A stretch of 64,000 nt of DNA from Leptotrichia hongkongensis (GCF_007990635.1 NZ_AP019846.1:1612001-1676000), one strand, 5' to 3'; shown: positions 56,562-64,000, counted from the first letter of the stretch. Program-made: numbers and translations. The notes: generated by a model from the letters alone, not told the origin.

Positions 56562-57605
56562 TTACCAAAAAATATATTTTTTTCTAAAAATCGGAAATTT
56601 CCTATCTACATACTCATTAACATAACATTGAGCTTCAGCATAACTTCCCATTATATTTAAAAAATCCAAAGAATCCTTAAAAATTCCTATTTTTTCATCT
56701 TCCACTTTAAATGCGATAATATAAGGAAATATTCTATTAAAATAATTAAGTTTTTCTTCTTCTGTTTCAAATTTATCTATCTTATTTTTCTCCGCAGTTT
56801 CAAAATACATTTTTAAACCTTCAATATACTCCATTTTTCGCTGTCCTGAAACTGTATATTTTCCTATTGCCTTTTCATAAACCAAAAATATTATTCCCAA
56901 AATAAACAGGCTTAATCCCAAATAAATCTCCATATACATCATTACAGCAACAATTATTCCCAATATAACTGCTACATATAAAAACTTTAAAATTCCTTCA
57001 GACATCCCGTGTACATACTCAAGCAATATAAATATAAACATTGTACCAATAATAGCACTTTCAAGATTCCCCTGTAATAATTTTAATAATATAAAAACTA
57101 TAGAAACCGCTATTCCAAATATTACAGGGACAAAAAGCAAATAATTATTTTTATAAATTATTCTTTTATATTTTTTTTCCAAAAAATGCACAATGCGATT
57201 TTTAAATCCAATAATCCCTAGTTTATTCGCAAACAAATCATTTTCCGAAAGAACATCCAGCAAATTATTTTCCTCTTGAAATAAAGTTTCCTTCCTCAAT
57301 TTAAAATTATATCTATTTTTCTGATTCAAAACATATTTTCTCTTTCCAGTACCATCTTCATCAACTTTGGAAATATATCCCTTCAGTATTAACGACAACA
57401 TTCCAATTTTCAATATTTCCTTTGAATCCCTCTCGCCATTAATATAAGCCACAAACATTGCAGAAATATAATCTGACTCTGTAAATTCAGGAACAACTGC
57501 CTTTCTTTTCGGATCTCTTCCAAAAAAATACCAAGTTAAGACAGAATATATTGCGACAAGTATAACTACAATAATTTCAATTATAACTACATAAGATTTA
57601 TTCAT
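56562..57605 (-). CDS. DUF2207 paralog, core only (no ectodomain, no Gly-rich tail)
   Basis: The 347-residue product begins with a membrane helix and SVLTWYFFGRDPKRKAVVPEF. It contains the core also seen in its neighbours: SAMFVAYINGERDSKEILKIGMLSLILKGYI, several membrane helices, then YEKAIGKYTVSGQRKMEYIEGLKMYFETAEKNKIDKFETEEE. It lacks the N-terminal beta-rich domain (about 230 residues) and the C-terminal GGGSGGGGGGSW tail of the full-length paralogs. AAAGGAG precedes the ATG. It is the most downstream member of the array. Function unknown. Confidence 0.85.
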   Translation of the reverse strand: MNKSYVVIIEIIVVILVAIYSVLTWYFFGRDPKRKAVVPEFTESDYISAMFVAYINGERDSKEILKIGMLSLILKGYISKVDEDGTGKRKYVLNQKNRYNFKLRKETLFQEENNLLDVLSENDLFANKLGIIGFKNRIVHFLEKKYKRIIYKNNYLLFVPVIFGIAVSIVFILLKLLQGNLESAIIGTMFIFILLEYVHGMSEGILKFLYVAVILGIIVAVMMYMEIYLGLSLFILGIIFLVYEKAIGKYTVSGQRKMEYIEGLKMYFETAEKNKIDKFETEEEKLNYFNRIFPYIIAFKVEDEKIGIFKDSLDFLNIMGSYAEAQCYVNEYVDRKFPIFRKKYIFW

Positions 57606-57675
57606 TAATAAGCTCCTTTAATACATTTTTATACTTTAACCTTCTCAAGCTCTAAACTTATCTAATCTTAATAAG

Positions 57676-58729
57676 TCAAACTTTAAAAAAATCAAATACA
57701 TTTTTAAACAATTTATTAGGAAATATCGAAACTGTATATTCATCGACAAAATATTTTGCCTCTTTGTAACTTCCCATCATATTTAAAAAATTTAAAGAAT
57801 CCATAAATAATTTAAAACTTTCATCTTCTATTTTAAGTGCAACAGCATAAGGAAGCAAATAATTAAAATAATTAAACTTTTCCTCTTGCGTTTCAAATTT
57901 ATCTATCCTGTATCTTTCCGTTGTATTAAAATACATTTTCATCCCTTCGATATATTCCATTTTTCTTCTTCCTGCAGTCGTGTACTTTCCTATCGCTTTT
58001 TCATAAATCAAAAATATTATCCCTAAAGTAAATAAACTTATGCCTGAATAAATATCAACATACATTATAACCCCAATAATTCCACCTATAACAACTGTAA
58101 TATATAAGAATTTCAAAACTCCCCTTGACATATCATACACAAGTTTTAACCATACAATTCCTGCTATTGTGGTACGAACTGAATTTTCAACATTTCCCTT
58201 TGTTAATTTCAATAATAAAAAAAATAATAAAATCACAGTTCCTAAAATAAATGGAATAAAACAAAAATAATTATTTTTATATATCGTTTTATTATATTTT
58301 TTCTCTAAAAAATGTACAATACGGTTTTTATATTTTAAAATTAACTGTTTATTGAAAAATAAGTCCCCCTCAGATAAAATATCCAGTAATTCATTTTCTT
58401 CTTCAAATAAATTTGTCTTTCTTAATTCTAAATTTTTTATTTTTATTATTCAAAATAAATTTTTTAATTTTACCTTTTTTGTCTTTAATAACGGAAATAT
58501 AATTTTTGGATAATAATGACAATATTCCAATCTTTAATATTCTTATTGAATCTCTTTCCCCATTAATATATGCGATGAACATTGCAGAAATATTATCTGG
58601 CACATTAAATTCAGGAACAACAGCCTTTCTCTTTGGATCTCTTCCAAAAAAATACCAAGTTAAGATAGAATACACCGAAACAAATATAACTAAAACTGCT
58701 TCAATTATAAGCATACCAAATTTATCCAT
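57676..58729 (-). pseudogene. DUF2207 paralog, core only, frameshifted
   Basis: It closely resembles the neighbour at 56562. The start ATG at 58729 follows AAGGAG and the first part reads to NKKFRIKKDKFI-stop. The rest continues in another frame with LRKTNLFEEENELLDILSE (open across 58236-58430) and on to FFKV. Removing one A from the run of six near 58439 gives NLELRKTNLFEEE, matching the paralog. So this is one gene of about 350 codons with a one-base insertion, not two genes. Confidence 0.85.
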
Positions 58730-58851
58730 TAACAATCTCCTTAAAATTCAAATTGCATCTTTTCATATTCCATCTCTTTCATTTTCTGTATATTCTGTTC
58801 AATTTATCTTTATTCCTACACAAATTTGAAAAATTAATATTTTATAACAAT

Positions 58852-58880
58852 ATTATAAACTAAAAAACAATACTTTACAA
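58852..58880 (-). promoter_or_regulatory. Candidate promoter inside the DUF2207 array
   Basis: On the minus strand, TTGTAA (58880-58875) and TATAAT (58857-58852) are separated by 17 bases. It begins four bases after the terminator T-run at 58884, so it would restart transcription for the two core-only paralogs. Confidence 0.6.
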
Positions 58881-58883
58881 CAA

Positions 58884-58910
58884 GAAAAAAAGCCAGTATT
58901 TCTACCAGCT
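58884..58910 (-). terminator. Terminator overlapping the stop codon of the DUF2207 gene at 58902
   Basis: On the minus strand, AGCTGGTA, loop GAAA, and TACTGGCT pair over eight positions (two G-U), followed by seven Ts. The Ser-Trp-stop codons (58902-58910) form the 5' arm. Confidence 0.75.
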
Positions 58911-60794
58911 TCCTCCACCTCCTCCGCCAGAACCTCCGCCAGAGAAGCCTCCCCCACTAAAGAAGCCGCCTCCGCCTGAGCCACTTTTAGATGAACTAAA
59001 TTTTTCACTCATAATTTTCGATTTTCCACTACTGTAACTTCTTGAAAATGCATTCGTAAAACTGTGGTTACTATAAGCGTATATATGAGTATGGCTATTT
59101 ATATAAGATTCATTTATGTCAAAGTTGTATATTTTTATTGTTTTTTTCATTAATTTTATTGCCTCGTTTTTTACTCCAAGTGCTACTGCGAAAGGTAAAA
59201 TTCCATTAAAATATTCGATTAATTCCTTTACATTGTCAAATTTTCTTATCTGATTCTCTTCCGCTGTTTTTATATACATTTTCATACCTTTCAGGTATTC
59301 TTTTTTTCTTAAGCCTTCATTTGTATATTTACCAATTAACTTTGCATACACAATAAACAATATTACAAAATATGTTGTAAAAACAAAAATCTCAATTCCC
59401 TGATAAAAAGATACACCTAAAATCACTATAATTAATAATCCTATTAACAATTTTTTACTAACTGTTATCCAAATTCTATGAAAAAATGAGCCTAATGTTA
59501 TAAGTATATACAATATTATAAAAGTGTTGAAAATCTCAAAATTTGTCTGTGAAAATATAAAAATCATAAAAACAGGAGCTGTACAATAAAATGGAACTAA
59601 AAAACTTCCATTATTTTTATAAATTATTTTATGATACTTATCCTTCAGAATTTCAATAATACTATTTGCCTTATTATAAATTCTTTTTTCACTACCAAAA
59701 ATATCATTCTTTTCTGAAGAAAGAGCATCAAGCAGCATCCTTTCCTCTTCCGCCAGCTCAGTTTCCTGTGTATACGCAGTTTTGGATTCCTTGTTATATT
59801 TAATTTCACCATTAACTCTATTTGCTACTATAAACCCTTTTGTAAGTAATGTAAATATTCCTGCATTTAATATCTCCACTGTGTCTCTTTCACCATTTAT
59901 ATATGCCGCAAACATTGGAGAAATGTCTTTTGGCAAATTAAATTCTGGAATTACAGATTTTCCTTGCGGATCTTTTCCAAAAAACTTCCACGTTACAATA
60001 GAATATATTGTTAAAAATAACAATAAAAATGGCAAAATTATTATTGCTGGATTGGAAAGATATACAATTTTTAGCTTATCTACTAAAGTTGGACTTATTT
60101 TATCCGTTTTCAAATTTAGCATAAATGTAAGCCCATTTTTGGCCTCCAGCTCTTTTATTGAAATGTATATTTCCTCATCATTTTCTAAAATGTCATAATT
60201 TTCACCTTTTTCTCCATAACTTCCAGTATAAACTTCCAACTTTTCAATTTCATTTTTTTTAATTTTTTGCCCATCAGGAAATCTTATAATAACACTTGCC
60301 TGTTCAATAGGAACATTCCAAAACTGTCCAATAGCATTGTAATACACTTGATAAATTCCATCTTTTTCAAACACAGCATTATAAATATCGTAATTTAGCT
60401 CGTATACGCTCTCAGTCTTATACAAATTTACAAGTTCTGTTTCGGAACCTATTCTGTACCTTATTCCTTCATAAAAATGATTTTTTGTATATTCTTCATC
60501 CTTTCCGTCCCTCTTTATCCAATTCATTTTGATAAAAGACTTATGAACATCAAATCCAAACCTTTTTGAACGCAAAGGAATATCTCTATAAATCCCGTGC
60601 TTAAACTCTTCGCCAAACTGATAATCAATCACTTCATTTACAGTCAGCGTGCCATTTTTATTAATTTGCACTGTAACTTCATAATTTCTTATTTTTTCAC
60701 TATGCAATATTACTGCATCAAGCCTGCTTGAATTAAATAAAAACATCACCATAAACATAAATAATATTGAAAATTTTTTATTTTGAAATATCAT
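58902..60794 (-). CDS. DUF2207 membrane protein, full length with Gly-rich tail
   Basis: The 630-residue product has a signal segment (FSILFMFMVMFLFNSS), a beta-rich extracytoplasmic DUF2207 domain from about 30 to 235 (YEVTVQINKNGTLTVNEVIDYQF, HGIYRDIPL), then a membrane helix and the GKDPQGKSVIPEFNLPKDISPMFAAYINGERD core. Further helices, YAKLIGKYTNEGLRKKEYLKGMKMY, and a C-terminal tail of about 35 residues rich in Gly and Ser ending GGGSW follow. E. coli YciQ is a related protein of unknown function. It stands between the array's promoters and terminator. Confidence 0.9.
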   Translation of the reverse strand: MIFQNKKFSILFMFMVMFLFNSSRLDAVILHSEKIRNYEVTVQINKNGTLTVNEVIDYQFGEEFKHGIYRDIPLRSKRFGFDVHKSFIKMNWIKRDGKDEEYTKNHFYEGIRYRIGSETELVNLYKTESVYELNYDIYNAVFEKDGIYQVYYNAIGQFWNVPIEQASVIIRFPDGQKIKKNEIEKLEVYTGSYGEKGENYDILENDEEIYISIKELEAKNGLTFMLNLKTDKISPTLVDKLKIVYLSNPAIIILPFLLLFLTIYSIVTWKFFGKDPQGKSVIPEFNLPKDISPMFAAYINGERDTVEILNAGIFTLLTKGFIVANRVNGEIKYNKESKTAYTQETELAEEERMLLDALSSEKNDIFGSEKRIYNKANSIIEILKDKYHKIIYKNNGSFLVPFYCTAPVFMIFIFSQTNFEIFNTFIILYILITLGSFFHRIWITVSKKLLIGLLIIVILGVSFYQGIEIFVFTTYFVILFIVYAKLIGKYTNEGLRKKEYLKGMKMYIKTAEENQIRKFDNVKELIEYFNGILPFAVALGVKNEAIKLMKKTIKIYNFDINESYINSHTHIYAYSNHSFTNAFSRSYSSGKSKIMSEKFSSSKSGSGGGGFFSGGGFSGGGSGGGGGGSW

Positions 60795-60852
60795 ATTTTA
60801 TCTATCCTTATTTTTAGTTATTCTAAAACTTTTTCAGTATCAAACTTTAAAA

Positions 60853-60879
60853 ATTATACAAATTTAAAATTTATGTAAA
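60853..60879 (-). promoter_or_regulatory. Possible promoter upstream of the DUF2207 gene at 58902
   Basis: On the minus strand, TTTACA (60879-60874) and TATAAT (60858-60853) have a short 15-base spacing, directly after the preceding terminator. Weaker than the promoter at 58852. Confidence 0.4.
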
Positions 60880-60885
60880 AATCAT

Positions 60886-60909
60886 AAAAAGCCAGTATTT
60901 CTACCAGCT
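60886..60909 (-). terminator. Terminator overlapping the stop codon of the DUF2207 gene at 60901
   Basis: The same AGCTGGTA-GAAA-TACTGGCT hairpin as at 58884, with five Ts after it. The gene's Ser-Trp-stop codons again form the 5' arm. Confidence 0.72.
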
Positions 60910-62853
60910 TCCTCCACCTCCCCCGCCGGAACCTCCGCCAGAGAAGCCTCCACCACTTGAGAATCCGCCTCCTCCAAAACCGCTTCCGCTCGAATTTCTA
61001 GAGTTTTCTCTCAAAGTGCTAAATCTTTCTTCTGCTATTTCATTGTATGCATTGTTATAACCTCTTGAAATCATATCTGATAAAAAGAAATTATTGTATG
61101 AATTAAAATGTACTCCTCTATTTATGTAAGAATATGTACTTTCATCAAAATCATAAAGTTTTATTGTATTCTTCATAAGTTTTACTGCTTCATTTTTTAC
61201 ACCAAGAGCTACTGCATAAGGCAATATCCCTTTAAAATAGGCTACCAGTTCATCTACATCATTAAATTTCATAATTTGATTTGCTTCAGCAGTCTTTATG
61301 TACATTTTCATTCCGTCCAGATATTCTTTCTTTCTCATTCCATCAACAGTATATCTTCCAATTATTTTTGAATAAACAACATACATTGCCATAATTATTC
61401 CAATTATAATGAAATTTAAAACTCCATATATTAATGAAAAGAATAATACTGCTATCCACTTAATAATTTTTAAAAATTTGCTATTATTTCCATAAATATT
61501 ATTGATAATTGAAAAAATCGTATTTAATACTATTCCAAAGAAAATAGCAACCATAACTAGAGAAACTGCTCCAGAAATGCCATCCGAAATACCTGCCGTT
61601 CCGCTGCTTGCAGTTGATGAAATCATAAAAACTATAATCATACCGACAATAAAGACAATATTAAAAATGTTATTATCCTTGTAAACTTTCTTTTTATACT
61701 CTTTTTCAAATGATTTTAATATTTTATTTGAAGCATCGTAAAGGCTTCTTTCTTTTTTAAATATGTATCCATTATCAGAAAGAGCATTAAAAACAATCTT
61801 TTCTTCTTCTGCTAATTCAGGCTTGCTTTTTCTACTGTCAGACAATGTATATTCTACATTTCTTCCATTACCTTCTTCATCATTAGCTTCAACATAACCT
61901 TTAGAAAGCAATGAAAGCACTCCGATTGTTAGTATTTCTTTTGGCTCTCTTTCTCCATTGATATAAGCCGCATACATGGCAGAAATATCCTTTGGTATGT
62001 TAAATTCAGGAACAATTGCCTTTTTATTTACATCTCTTCCAAATATATACCACGTTACAAATCCATAAATTGCTAGAATTATTATTATAATCGGTCCTAC
62101 AGCAATTAAAGGATGAGCATAATAAAGTGTCTGTAATTTATCCCAAAATGTTGGGCTTATATTATCTGTTTTTAAATTCAGACGAAAACTTAATCCATTA
62201 TATGCCTCTAAAACCTTATTTGTTTTAATTTCAACAGTTCCATTATTCAAATTTGTAATATAATCTTTCCCACTTTGTCCATATTCACCTGTAAAAATAT
62301 CTAATTGCCTAATTTCATTTTTTAAAACAGGTTCTCCATTTCCAAATTTTATATTTACCGCAGCTTTTTCAATAGGAACTTGCCAAAATTGACCAATTGC
62401 ATTAAAGTAAACCTGATAAATTCCATTTTTTTCAAATACTGCATTATAAATCACATAATTAAATTCGTATCTATTTACGCCATTTTCCACAAATCTGTCT
62501 GCAGAACCAACCCTATATCTAATACCTTCATCAAAAAGTTTTGTAGAGTATTCTTCAGAAATACCATTTCTCTTTATCGAATTCATTTTTATATAAGATT
62601 TGTAAATATCCACGCCGTTTTTCTTTGAACGTAACGGAATATCCCTATAAATACCGTGCTTTGCCGCACCGTCAAATTCATAGTCAATCACTTCATTTAC
62701 TGTCAAAGTCCCATTTTTATTCATCTGAACTGTAACTTCATAATTCGTTATTTTTTCAGCAATTAATGATTTCGCACTTAAGAAAAATAATGTGAAAAAT
62801 ACAAACATTATTGAAAAAATACTGTTTAATTTTCGGTTGCTAAAACTCTTCAT
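60901..62853 (-). CDS. DUF2207 membrane protein, full length with Gly-rich tail
   Basis: The product is about 650 residues with the same architecture as the gene at 58902: signal segment, DUF2207 ectodomain (NYEVTVQMNKNGTLTVNEVIDYEF, HGIYRDIPLRS), helix plus WYIFGRDVNKKAIVPEF, core, four or so further helices, and a C-terminal SGGGFSGGGSGGGGGGSW-type tail. The ATG at 62853 is chosen because GGAAGGAAAT precedes it; earlier in-frame ATGs lie within the upstream gene. The start overlaps the end of the upstream paralog by 14 bases, implying translational coupling. Confidence 0.9.
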   Translation of the reverse strand: MKSFSNRKLNSIFSIMFVFFTLFFLSAKSLIAEKITNYEVTVQMNKNGTLTVNEVIDYEFDGAAKHGIYRDIPLRSKKNGVDIYKSYIKMNSIKRNGISEEYSTKLFDEGIRYRVGSADRFVENGVNRYEFNYVIYNAVFEKNGIYQVYFNAIGQFWQVPIEKAAVNIKFGNGEPVLKNEIRQLDIFTGEYGQSGKDYITNLNNGTVEIKTNKVLEAYNGLSFRLNLKTDNISPTFWDKLQTLYYAHPLIAVGPIIIIILAIYGFVTWYIFGRDVNKKAIVPEFNIPKDISAMYAAYINGEREPKEILTIGVLSLLSKGYVEANDEEGNGRNVEYTLSDSRKSKPELAEEEKIVFNALSDNGYIFKKERSLYDASNKILKSFEKEYKKKVYKDNNIFNIVFIVGMIIVFMISSTASSGTAGISDGISGAVSLVMVAIFFGIVLNTIFSIINNIYGNNSKFLKIIKWIAVLFFSLIYGVLNFIIIGIIMAMYVVYSKIIGRYTVDGMRKKEYLDGMKMYIKTAEANQIMKFNDVDELVAYFKGILPYAVALGVKNEAVKLMKNTIKLYDFDESTYSYINRGVHFNSYNNFFLSDMISRGYNNAYNEIAEERFSTLRENSRNSSGSGFGGGGFSSGGGFSGGGSGGGGGGSW

Positions 62854-64000
62854 AATAATTTCCTTCCAATGCTTCATTAGAAGCTTTTTCCAATATTTCT
62901 TTTGCAAATATCTCATTCCCAAATGATTTCATAAATTTATCATTTTTATAAATAAATATATTAAGTGTATTTTCAATATATTCCTTTTTATCCTCAAGCC
63001 CTGATATTTCTATAGATTTTTTTATCATTTCTACAACATGTTTTTGCACTTTCAAAGCTTGTGAAAATGGTAAAATCTTTTTAAAATATGAAATCAACTC
63101 TTCTACATCATTAAACTTTTTAACTTCCCCACTTTTTACGTACATCTTAAATCCTTCCAAGTCCTTTTTTATCCTAGCCCCTCCATCTGTAAACTTTCCA
63201 ATATTCCTAAAATAAAGCACAAGTAAAATTGTTACCAAGGTTATAATCACTCCTGCTATTCCAAAAGGAAATAACATAAGTCCTGCCGAAAAATATACAA
63301 TACCACAGAATACCCCTATTAAAAGAGAAATCATTAATTTTATCAATACCGGAAATCCTTTAGTTTTTAAAATTAAAAAAAGTATATTTGACAAAAGTAT
63401 TGCCCAGAAAAATGTTGGAAAAAGAACAATTAATGGCACAATCGCATTCATTCCTTCAAAAATAAAAAGTAAAATTCCAAATAAAAATATTATAATTATG
63501 TAAAGTATTTTTAACTTCCAATTTGAATTATAAAACCTTTTATCCCATTTTTCCCTATTTATAGACTTTATTCCAATTAAATACAAGAAAGCGTAGTTTC
63601 CTCTCCCATCAAATTTTTCCTTCAAAACCTCAAGAATTTTAAGAAGCTGGTTCATAATAGGGTTTTTATACCCAAGAATACTCTCCTTGTCGTATTCAAT
63701 CAAAAATTCTAAAATCATTCTCTCTTCTTCTGAAAGTTCCCATTGCCTACATCCATAATCATTGATTTTACCCATATTGAACCCATACTTCTTCTTGGTT
63801 ATCTGTCTATAATATTTTTTAATGTCAACAATTTCAACAGTCTTTTTATCTTTCTTTATTTCGTGTTCATCTTCTGTCACTTTATAATTTTTCAAATCAA
63901 CATAATCTTCAATTATTACAAATTCTTTGCTTATTAGTTCCAATAATCCAAGATATGCCAAATCTATTGTCTGCTTTGAACCATCCATATAAGCCGCCAT
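62840..64000 (-). CDS. DUF2207 paralog, 3' part (runs off the window)
   Basis: At least 386 codons are visible. The first visible residues, MAAYMDGSKQTIDLAYLGLLELISKEF, correspond to the internal AAYINGERD core of its neighbours, so the methionine at the edge is not the true start and the N-terminal part lies beyond the window. It contains membrane helices and YFRNIGKFTDGGARIKKDLEGFKMYVKSGEVKKFND. It ends EGNYYEEF without the Gly-rich tail. It is more diverged than the other four and overlaps the next gene by 14 bases. Confidence 0.85.
   Translation of the reverse strand: MAAYMDGSKQTIDLAYLGLLELISKEFVIIEDYVDLKNYKVTEDEHEIKKDKKTVEIVDIKKYYRQITKKKYGFNMGKINDYGCRQWELSEEERMILEFLIEYDKESILGYKNPIMNQLLKILEVLKEKFDGRGNYAFLYLIGIKSINREKWDKRFYNSNWKLKILYIIIIFLFGILLFIFEGMNAIVPLIVLFPTFFWAILLSNILFLILKTKGFPVLIKLMISLLIGVFCGIVYFSAGLMLFPFGIAGVIITLVTILLVLYFRNIGKFTDGGARIKKDLEGFKMYVKSGEVKKFNDVEELISYFKKILPFSQALKVQKHVVEMIKKSIEISGLEDKKEYIENTLNIFIYKNDKFMKSFGNEIFAKEILEKASNEALEGNYYEEF

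Follow-up and report, generated by a model that had tools for sequence, protein, structure and literature searches.

The bacterial envelope proteins LemA, DUF2207 and DUF2339 are widespread, and their mechanisms are largely or wholly unassigned. Gene pairs of LemA and DUF2207 have already been noted (PMC12631010), loss of DUF2207 in Streptococcus mutans lowers acid and oxidative (peroxide) tolerance and results in less biofilm (PMC10457818), and Arc3A, a DUF2339 protein of Pseudomonas, prevents the accumulation of lysophospholipids (PMC8926400). Here, we describe a tandem array of DUF2207 (YciQ family) genes in a stretch of 64,000 nucleotides from Leptotrichia hongkongensis (GCF_007990635.1, NZ_AP019846.1:1612001-1676000; hereafter the window, whose numbering is used for coordinates given without a locus name). 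An earlier sequence-only reading had proposed this array as a candidate for an undescribed system; given the published pairs and mutant phenotype it is not one from scratch, but a genuine, ordered expansion of a module that is known though uncharacterised, in which core-only paralogs are conserved. The explanation we favor, with about even confidence, is a lineage-specific expansion of a LemA-DUF2207 inner-membrane module, in which the core-only copies would be LemA-associated subunits and whose role would most likely be the protection or upkeep of envelope lipids.

Composition and predicted architecture of the array

A profile search of the 2.28-Mb genome for DUF2207_C (PF20990, gathering cut-off 33 bits) identified five consecutive genes on the minus strand, running from approximately 64150 down to 56562, and no matches beyond these five. 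In order they are designated DIV, LONG1, LONG2, SHA and SHB, and their family scores are far beyond chance (41.3, 74.8, 63, 39.4 for the C-terminal piece of SHA, and 35.5 bits, respectively). LONG1 (60901..62853, 650 amino acids (aa) from the most likely start, an ATG at 62853) and LONG2 (58902..60794, 630 aa, with signal peptide, ectodomain, core and Gly-rich tail) match both domains of the family end to end, including the DUF2207_N ectodomain (PF09972, 88 and 93 bits, respectively), and both finish in a Gly-rich tail ending SGGGGGGSW, of the kind found in relatives from Fusobacteriota and Alphaproteobacteria. DIV, SHA and SHB carry no such tail and gave no PF09972 match in the profile search, and are thus core-only DUF2207 variants. 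SHB (56562..57605) encodes 347 aa, SHA spans 57676..58735 in two pieces (58403-58735 and 57676-58413), and DIV (436 aa) extends from 62840 past the window edge at 64000 to approximately 64150 (L003 7840-9150), its end overlapping the start of LONG1 by 14 nt. Most genomes of the phylum hold one full-length copy, in contrast to the five tandem copies seen here, of which three lack the N-domain and the tail.

The five paralogs and the two full-length, tailed members had been recognized correctly by the sequence-only reading, which also described three architectures. Once DIV was completed past 64000, its first residues proved to be the first transmembrane (TM) helix, therefore DIV is core-only as well, leaving two architectures (two full-length and three core-only members). 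The member described as diverged and tail-less, DIV, does lack the tail, but lacks the ectodomain too; the two members described as core-only, SHA and SHB, are so, but SHA is split in this assembly and DIV makes a third. The NGERD- and IGKYT-type blocks ascribed to all five hold only in part, with the NGERD-type block present in four and DIV carrying YMDGSK in its place and IGKFT instead of IGKYT. The extended sequence (L003) revealed no further DUF2207 member upstream: the array begins with DIV, and ahead of it, outside the window and at operon-like spacing (L003 9188-13523), lie LemA (directly upstream of DIV; PF04011, 189.5 bits), then a gene for a DUF3999-like protein, then DUF2339.

SHA is not a single open reading frame here, because two bases are missing from a poly-A tract (minus strand, approximately 58433..58438) that is A6 in this genome and A8 in G002, G004 and G010, where SHA is intact at 357–361 aa. 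The frameshift occurs in this genome only, among the 13 Leptotrichia genomes compared; programmed frameshifting was set aside, since the relatives are plainly in frame with the longer tract. The DUF2339 gene is likewise split by one missing A in a poly-A tract (L003 10927-13523, ~65927-68523 in window numbering), and forms a single frame of 867–871 aa in all ten of the other Leptotrichia with DUF2339. These are two homopolymer deletions in one operon, for which assembly error and real loss are both possible.

AlphaFold2 models, built from the alignments of this analysis, reached a mean predicted local distance difference test (pLDDT) score of 79.9 for LONG2 and 75.9 for SHB. The LONG2 model contains a beta-sandwich ectodomain (residues 34-228) and a first TM helix (TM1, 249-273), followed by helices and a beta-hairpin at 293-335 that appear winged-helix-like, as read from secondary structure; after 335, long helices are predicted to form a membrane bundle, followed by cytoplasmic helices and a low-confidence Gly tail. 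The SHB model is the same core, from TM1 onward. The charge distribution around the TM helices places the winged-helix-like part, the C-terminal helices, the tail and the coiled coil of LemA in the cytoplasm. Foldseek matches to LONG2 mostly covered about 220 columns, in line with the extent of the ectodomain, the best being the N-terminal domain of M1 aminopeptidases and the luminal domain of ribophorin I; this is a resemblance in fold only, at 6–12% identity, and LONG2 has no peptidase domain. A fold search with the SHB core returned nothing significant, and a sequence search of the PDB gave chance matches only, mostly to Gly linkers, and no solved homolog.

Conservation and origin of the core-only copies

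Among the 13 Leptotrichia genomes, LONG1 and/or LONG2 were found in 11, and intact copies were present of SHB in eight, of SHA in three and of DIV in three (with orthologs in G002 and G003). DIV orthologs also lie after LemA in two other genera (G017 and G020; g6, g8). The short members are therefore not absent or degraded in every relative, an outcome by which the sequence-only reading would have taken them for decaying duplicates, even though SHA is broken in this assembly. Stepwise decay, in which the short copies are duplicates on their way out as fragments of full-length genes, had been offered as an alternative, and would account for the SHA frameshift, for a broken DIV in G010, and for the absence of SHA and SHB (together, SH) from G005, G007 and G008. 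In those three genomes the long copies stand without SH copies, and hence do not need them, and no leftover SH fragments were found. Ratios of nonsynonymous to synonymous substitution (dN/dS) are all below 1: SHB (0.17–0.36) is constrained like LONG1 (0.16–0.34) and LONG2 (0.14–0.28), LemA orthologs are below 0.15, and SHA (0.37–0.44) and DIV (0.35–0.46) are the least constrained, which is the somewhat relaxed pattern that decay would predict. Overall these values argue against simple decay. With SHB intact in eight species, SHA in three, DIV kept across three genera, and each falling into orthologous clades, the core-only copies are conserved genes under selection, and, kept intact by selection in relatives, they have the appearance of functional components and not of debris. 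We thus regard decay as very unlikely, the least probable of the explanations considered here.

In a tree of the shared core (65 rows), SHA and SHB formed a single clade (support 100/100), DIV a clade spanning three genera, and a separate core-only type of about 460 aa a clade of its own. A single clade of SH and DIV was rejected (approximately unbiased test, p-AU 0.031) and one origin for all core-only copies was not (p-AU 0.366), which favors at least two truncations; core-only proteins thus probably arose at least twice, as the better but not certain reading of the tree. Ectodomain and tail go missing together, the tail being present in 38 of the 41 rows with an N-domain and in none of the 24 core-only rows.

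Gene content at the locus differs in almost every species of the synteny comparison, and some copies appear to have moved. A third full-length DUF2207 of G010 (L050 9924-11927) is 95.7% identical in DNA to a frameshifted copy in another genus, G017 (L086 7657-9612), while the LemA genes of the two are 84% identical, likely reflecting a recent transfer between the two genera. The ~460-aa core-only type, which lies elsewhere in the chromosome with no LemA nearby (L042, L045, L054, L057, L094), is 95% identical in DNA between G005 and G014, again another genus, compared with 73% for a neighboring gene. All three observations would fit a turning-over locus, exchanging and diversifying accessory envelope proteins without any fixed complex. 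We consider this unlikely, as LONG1, LONG2, SHB and LemA are stable orthologs in most Leptotrichia and the varying core-only copies have no exposed ectodomain. A plasmid search with SHB found nothing. In three genomes, a putative gene resembling AAA-ATPase/nuclease-like proteins, as read from its sequence, adjoins LONG or SHA (L040 7157-9036 in G004, L047 12881-14527 in G008, and L051 9167-10804 in G010).

Association of DUF2207 with LemA

The survey of LemA and DUF2207 covered 98 Fusobacteriota genomes, with adjacency defined as genes within 4 kb. LemA and DUF2207 occur together in 69 genomes, DUF2207 alone in 2, LemA alone in 5 and neither in 22 (Fisher p ~4e-15, not corrected for phylogeny), and the two genes are adjacent in 60 of the 69 genomes that have both. 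Outside Leptotrichiaceae there is one DUF2207 copy per genome, almost without exception; the statement that the family is usually single-copy thus holds for that part of the phylum. LemA-DUF2207 pairs with a similar tail also occur in the Alphaproteobacteria Sinorhizobium and Sulfitobacter. The array follows this pattern in having LemA directly upstream, and departs from it in its expansion, in its core-only members, and in a second LemA-core pair in one species. In that species (G012), SHB is directly preceded, at a distance of 22 bp, by a second LemA (LemA2, 71% identical). The clearest partner signal of the DUF2207 copies is therefore with LemA, rather than long-with-short. Partnership of short with long copies in hetero-oligomers, as the sequence-only reading proposed, is a plausible hypothesis.

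Exceptions to the pairing are few. DUF2207 occurs without LemA in G024, which has two tandem full-length copies, and in G009, a Leptotrichia in which both DUF2207 genes are interrupted by IS200/IS605-type insertions, identified from their transposase sequences (TnpA and TnpB at L048 6313-9805, and TnpB alone at L049 3219-6774). In G006, LemA, DUF2339 and DUF2207 are all absent. Of the genomes with LemA but no DUF2207, two have a Gly-tailed TPM protein next to LemA, and one has a GIDE-domain protein there. These two LemA-TPM pairs, in the DUF2207-less G078 and G079 (L107 4532-5821 and L108 5362-6667), encode a TPM (YgcG-like) protein whose Gly-rich tail with a terminal aromatic residue recalls that of full-length DUF2207, although the ectodomains are unrelated. 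TPM is present in 1 of the 71 genomes with DUF2207 vs 6 of the 27 without it, a rare co-occurrence within the phylum. The idea of the Gly-rich aromatic tail as a LemA tag was weakened by TPM proteins of LemA-less genomes, which also have Ser/Gly tails with aromatic ends; as TPM proteins away from LemA carry such tails too, the tail is not LemA-specific and is only suggestive.

The arrangement of the loci bears on whether short and long copies act together. SHB adjoins nifS in every case and the LemA-LONG operon adjoins DUF2339 in every case; the SH and LONG loci are adjacent in G000, G002, G003 and G004, and lie apart in G001, G010, G011 and G012. Within the array, terminator-like hairpins on the minus strand are built into the GGSW-stop codons of both long genes, one overlapping the end of LONG2 and followed by a T run (58885..58916), the other at the end of LONG1 with a weaker T run (60886..60913), with pairing kept in relatives. 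Between LONG2 and SHA/SHB lies a promoter-like TTGTAA-17-TATAAT (58852..58880, minus strand), a consensus match only, with near-identical sequence in G002 and G003. With the hairpin at the end of LONG2 and this site after it, SHA and SHB plausibly form a separate transcription unit. One possibility, which we hold to be less probable than the favored explanation though the strongest of its competitors, is that the short copies are independent, subfunctionalised LemA partners rather than subunits with the long copies, the array being two loci that became neighbors. The promoter-like site and the separated loci are in line with this, as is the LemA2-SHB pair of G012, which stands beside a phosphotransferase system (PTS) locus, the same PTS genes that adjoin SHB in G001. 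It is less easily reconciled with the adjacency of SH and LONG in four species, or with the position of DIV, which in its intact form has LemA on one side and a long copy on the other, and with its overlap with LONG1.

The DUF2339 operon and a possible role in envelope lipids

In Leptotrichia, the order DUF2339-DUF3999-LemA-DUF2207 is kept in all 11 genomes with LemA, and in the remaining two of the 13 DUF2339 and LemA are both absent. The main piece of the DUF2339 protein matches PF10101, the Arc3A family, with 96.7 bits. The operon resembles the Arc3A/Arc3B pair of Pseudomonas in opening with DUF2339, and hydropathy predicts for the next protein an N-terminal signal and a C-terminal TM helix, features described for Arc3B. 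Unlike that pair, DUF2339 is frameshifted in this assembly, the DUF3999-like protein scores just below the family cut-off (29.6 vs 30 bits), and no Cys lipobox was seen in it; any defence function of the Leptotrichia genes is putative. Martelella-type plasmids also carry DUF2207 close to DUF2339, with the two genes on opposite strands and separated by another gene; this arrangement is absent in a third Martelella and was not used as evidence.

In the mechanism we propose, the beta-sandwich ectodomain of a full-length DUF2207 would lie in the periplasm and read it, and one TM helix would connect it to a winged-helix-like domain in the cytoplasm; a helix bundle in the membrane, a helical domain in the cytoplasm and the Gly tail would follow. 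The coiled coil of LemA, placed in the cytoplasm as well, could contact the core and tail there. DIV, SHA and SHB, which retain the core without the periplasmic part or the tail, may join in without sensing, most likely as core subunits that associate with LemA and modulate or complete assemblies of the full-length protein. The process served would most likely be one that protects or maintains envelope lipids during attack or stress, which we infer because the operon starts with DUF2339 and the DUF3999-like gene and from the published Arc3A and DUF2207 phenotypes; this step is suggested by gene order in one genus. A more specific version is doubtful in our estimate: in it the core-only copies, which would have arisen repeatedly through loss of the sensor and the tail, would serve specifically as regulatory or structural subunits of an inner-membrane assembly scaffolded by LemA, and this assembly would act together with Arc3A/DUF2339 in handling phospholipid damage.

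Several observations weigh against the favored explanation. The SH genes sit behind a terminator-like hairpin with a promoter-like site of their own, and lie far from the long genes in four genomes; SH copies are absent from several Leptotrichia and are thus dispensable, and constraint on SHA and DIV is weaker (0.35–0.46). The linked loss seen in two genomes could stem from one deletion, and the DUF2339 link is limited to Leptotrichia within the phylum, other genera having LemA-DUF2207 with no DUF2339 nearby. Moreover, susceptibility to cell-wall antimicrobials was not greatly altered in the S. mutans DUF2207 mutant (PMC10457818).

As judged from the genomes compared, the array expansion, to as many as five DUF2207 copies in a row, appears confined to Leptotrichia and near relatives, and the underlying two-gene module widespread. 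One genus thus offers a natural dissection, with the three families in one operon, DUF2207 duplicated into two forms, and the set lost or broken together in some species. This dissection predicts that it is the core that acts together with LemA, whereas the ectodomain and the tail are expendable. If true, a LemA-scaffolded assembly with Arc3A would give LemA, DUF2207 and DUF2339 a shared process.

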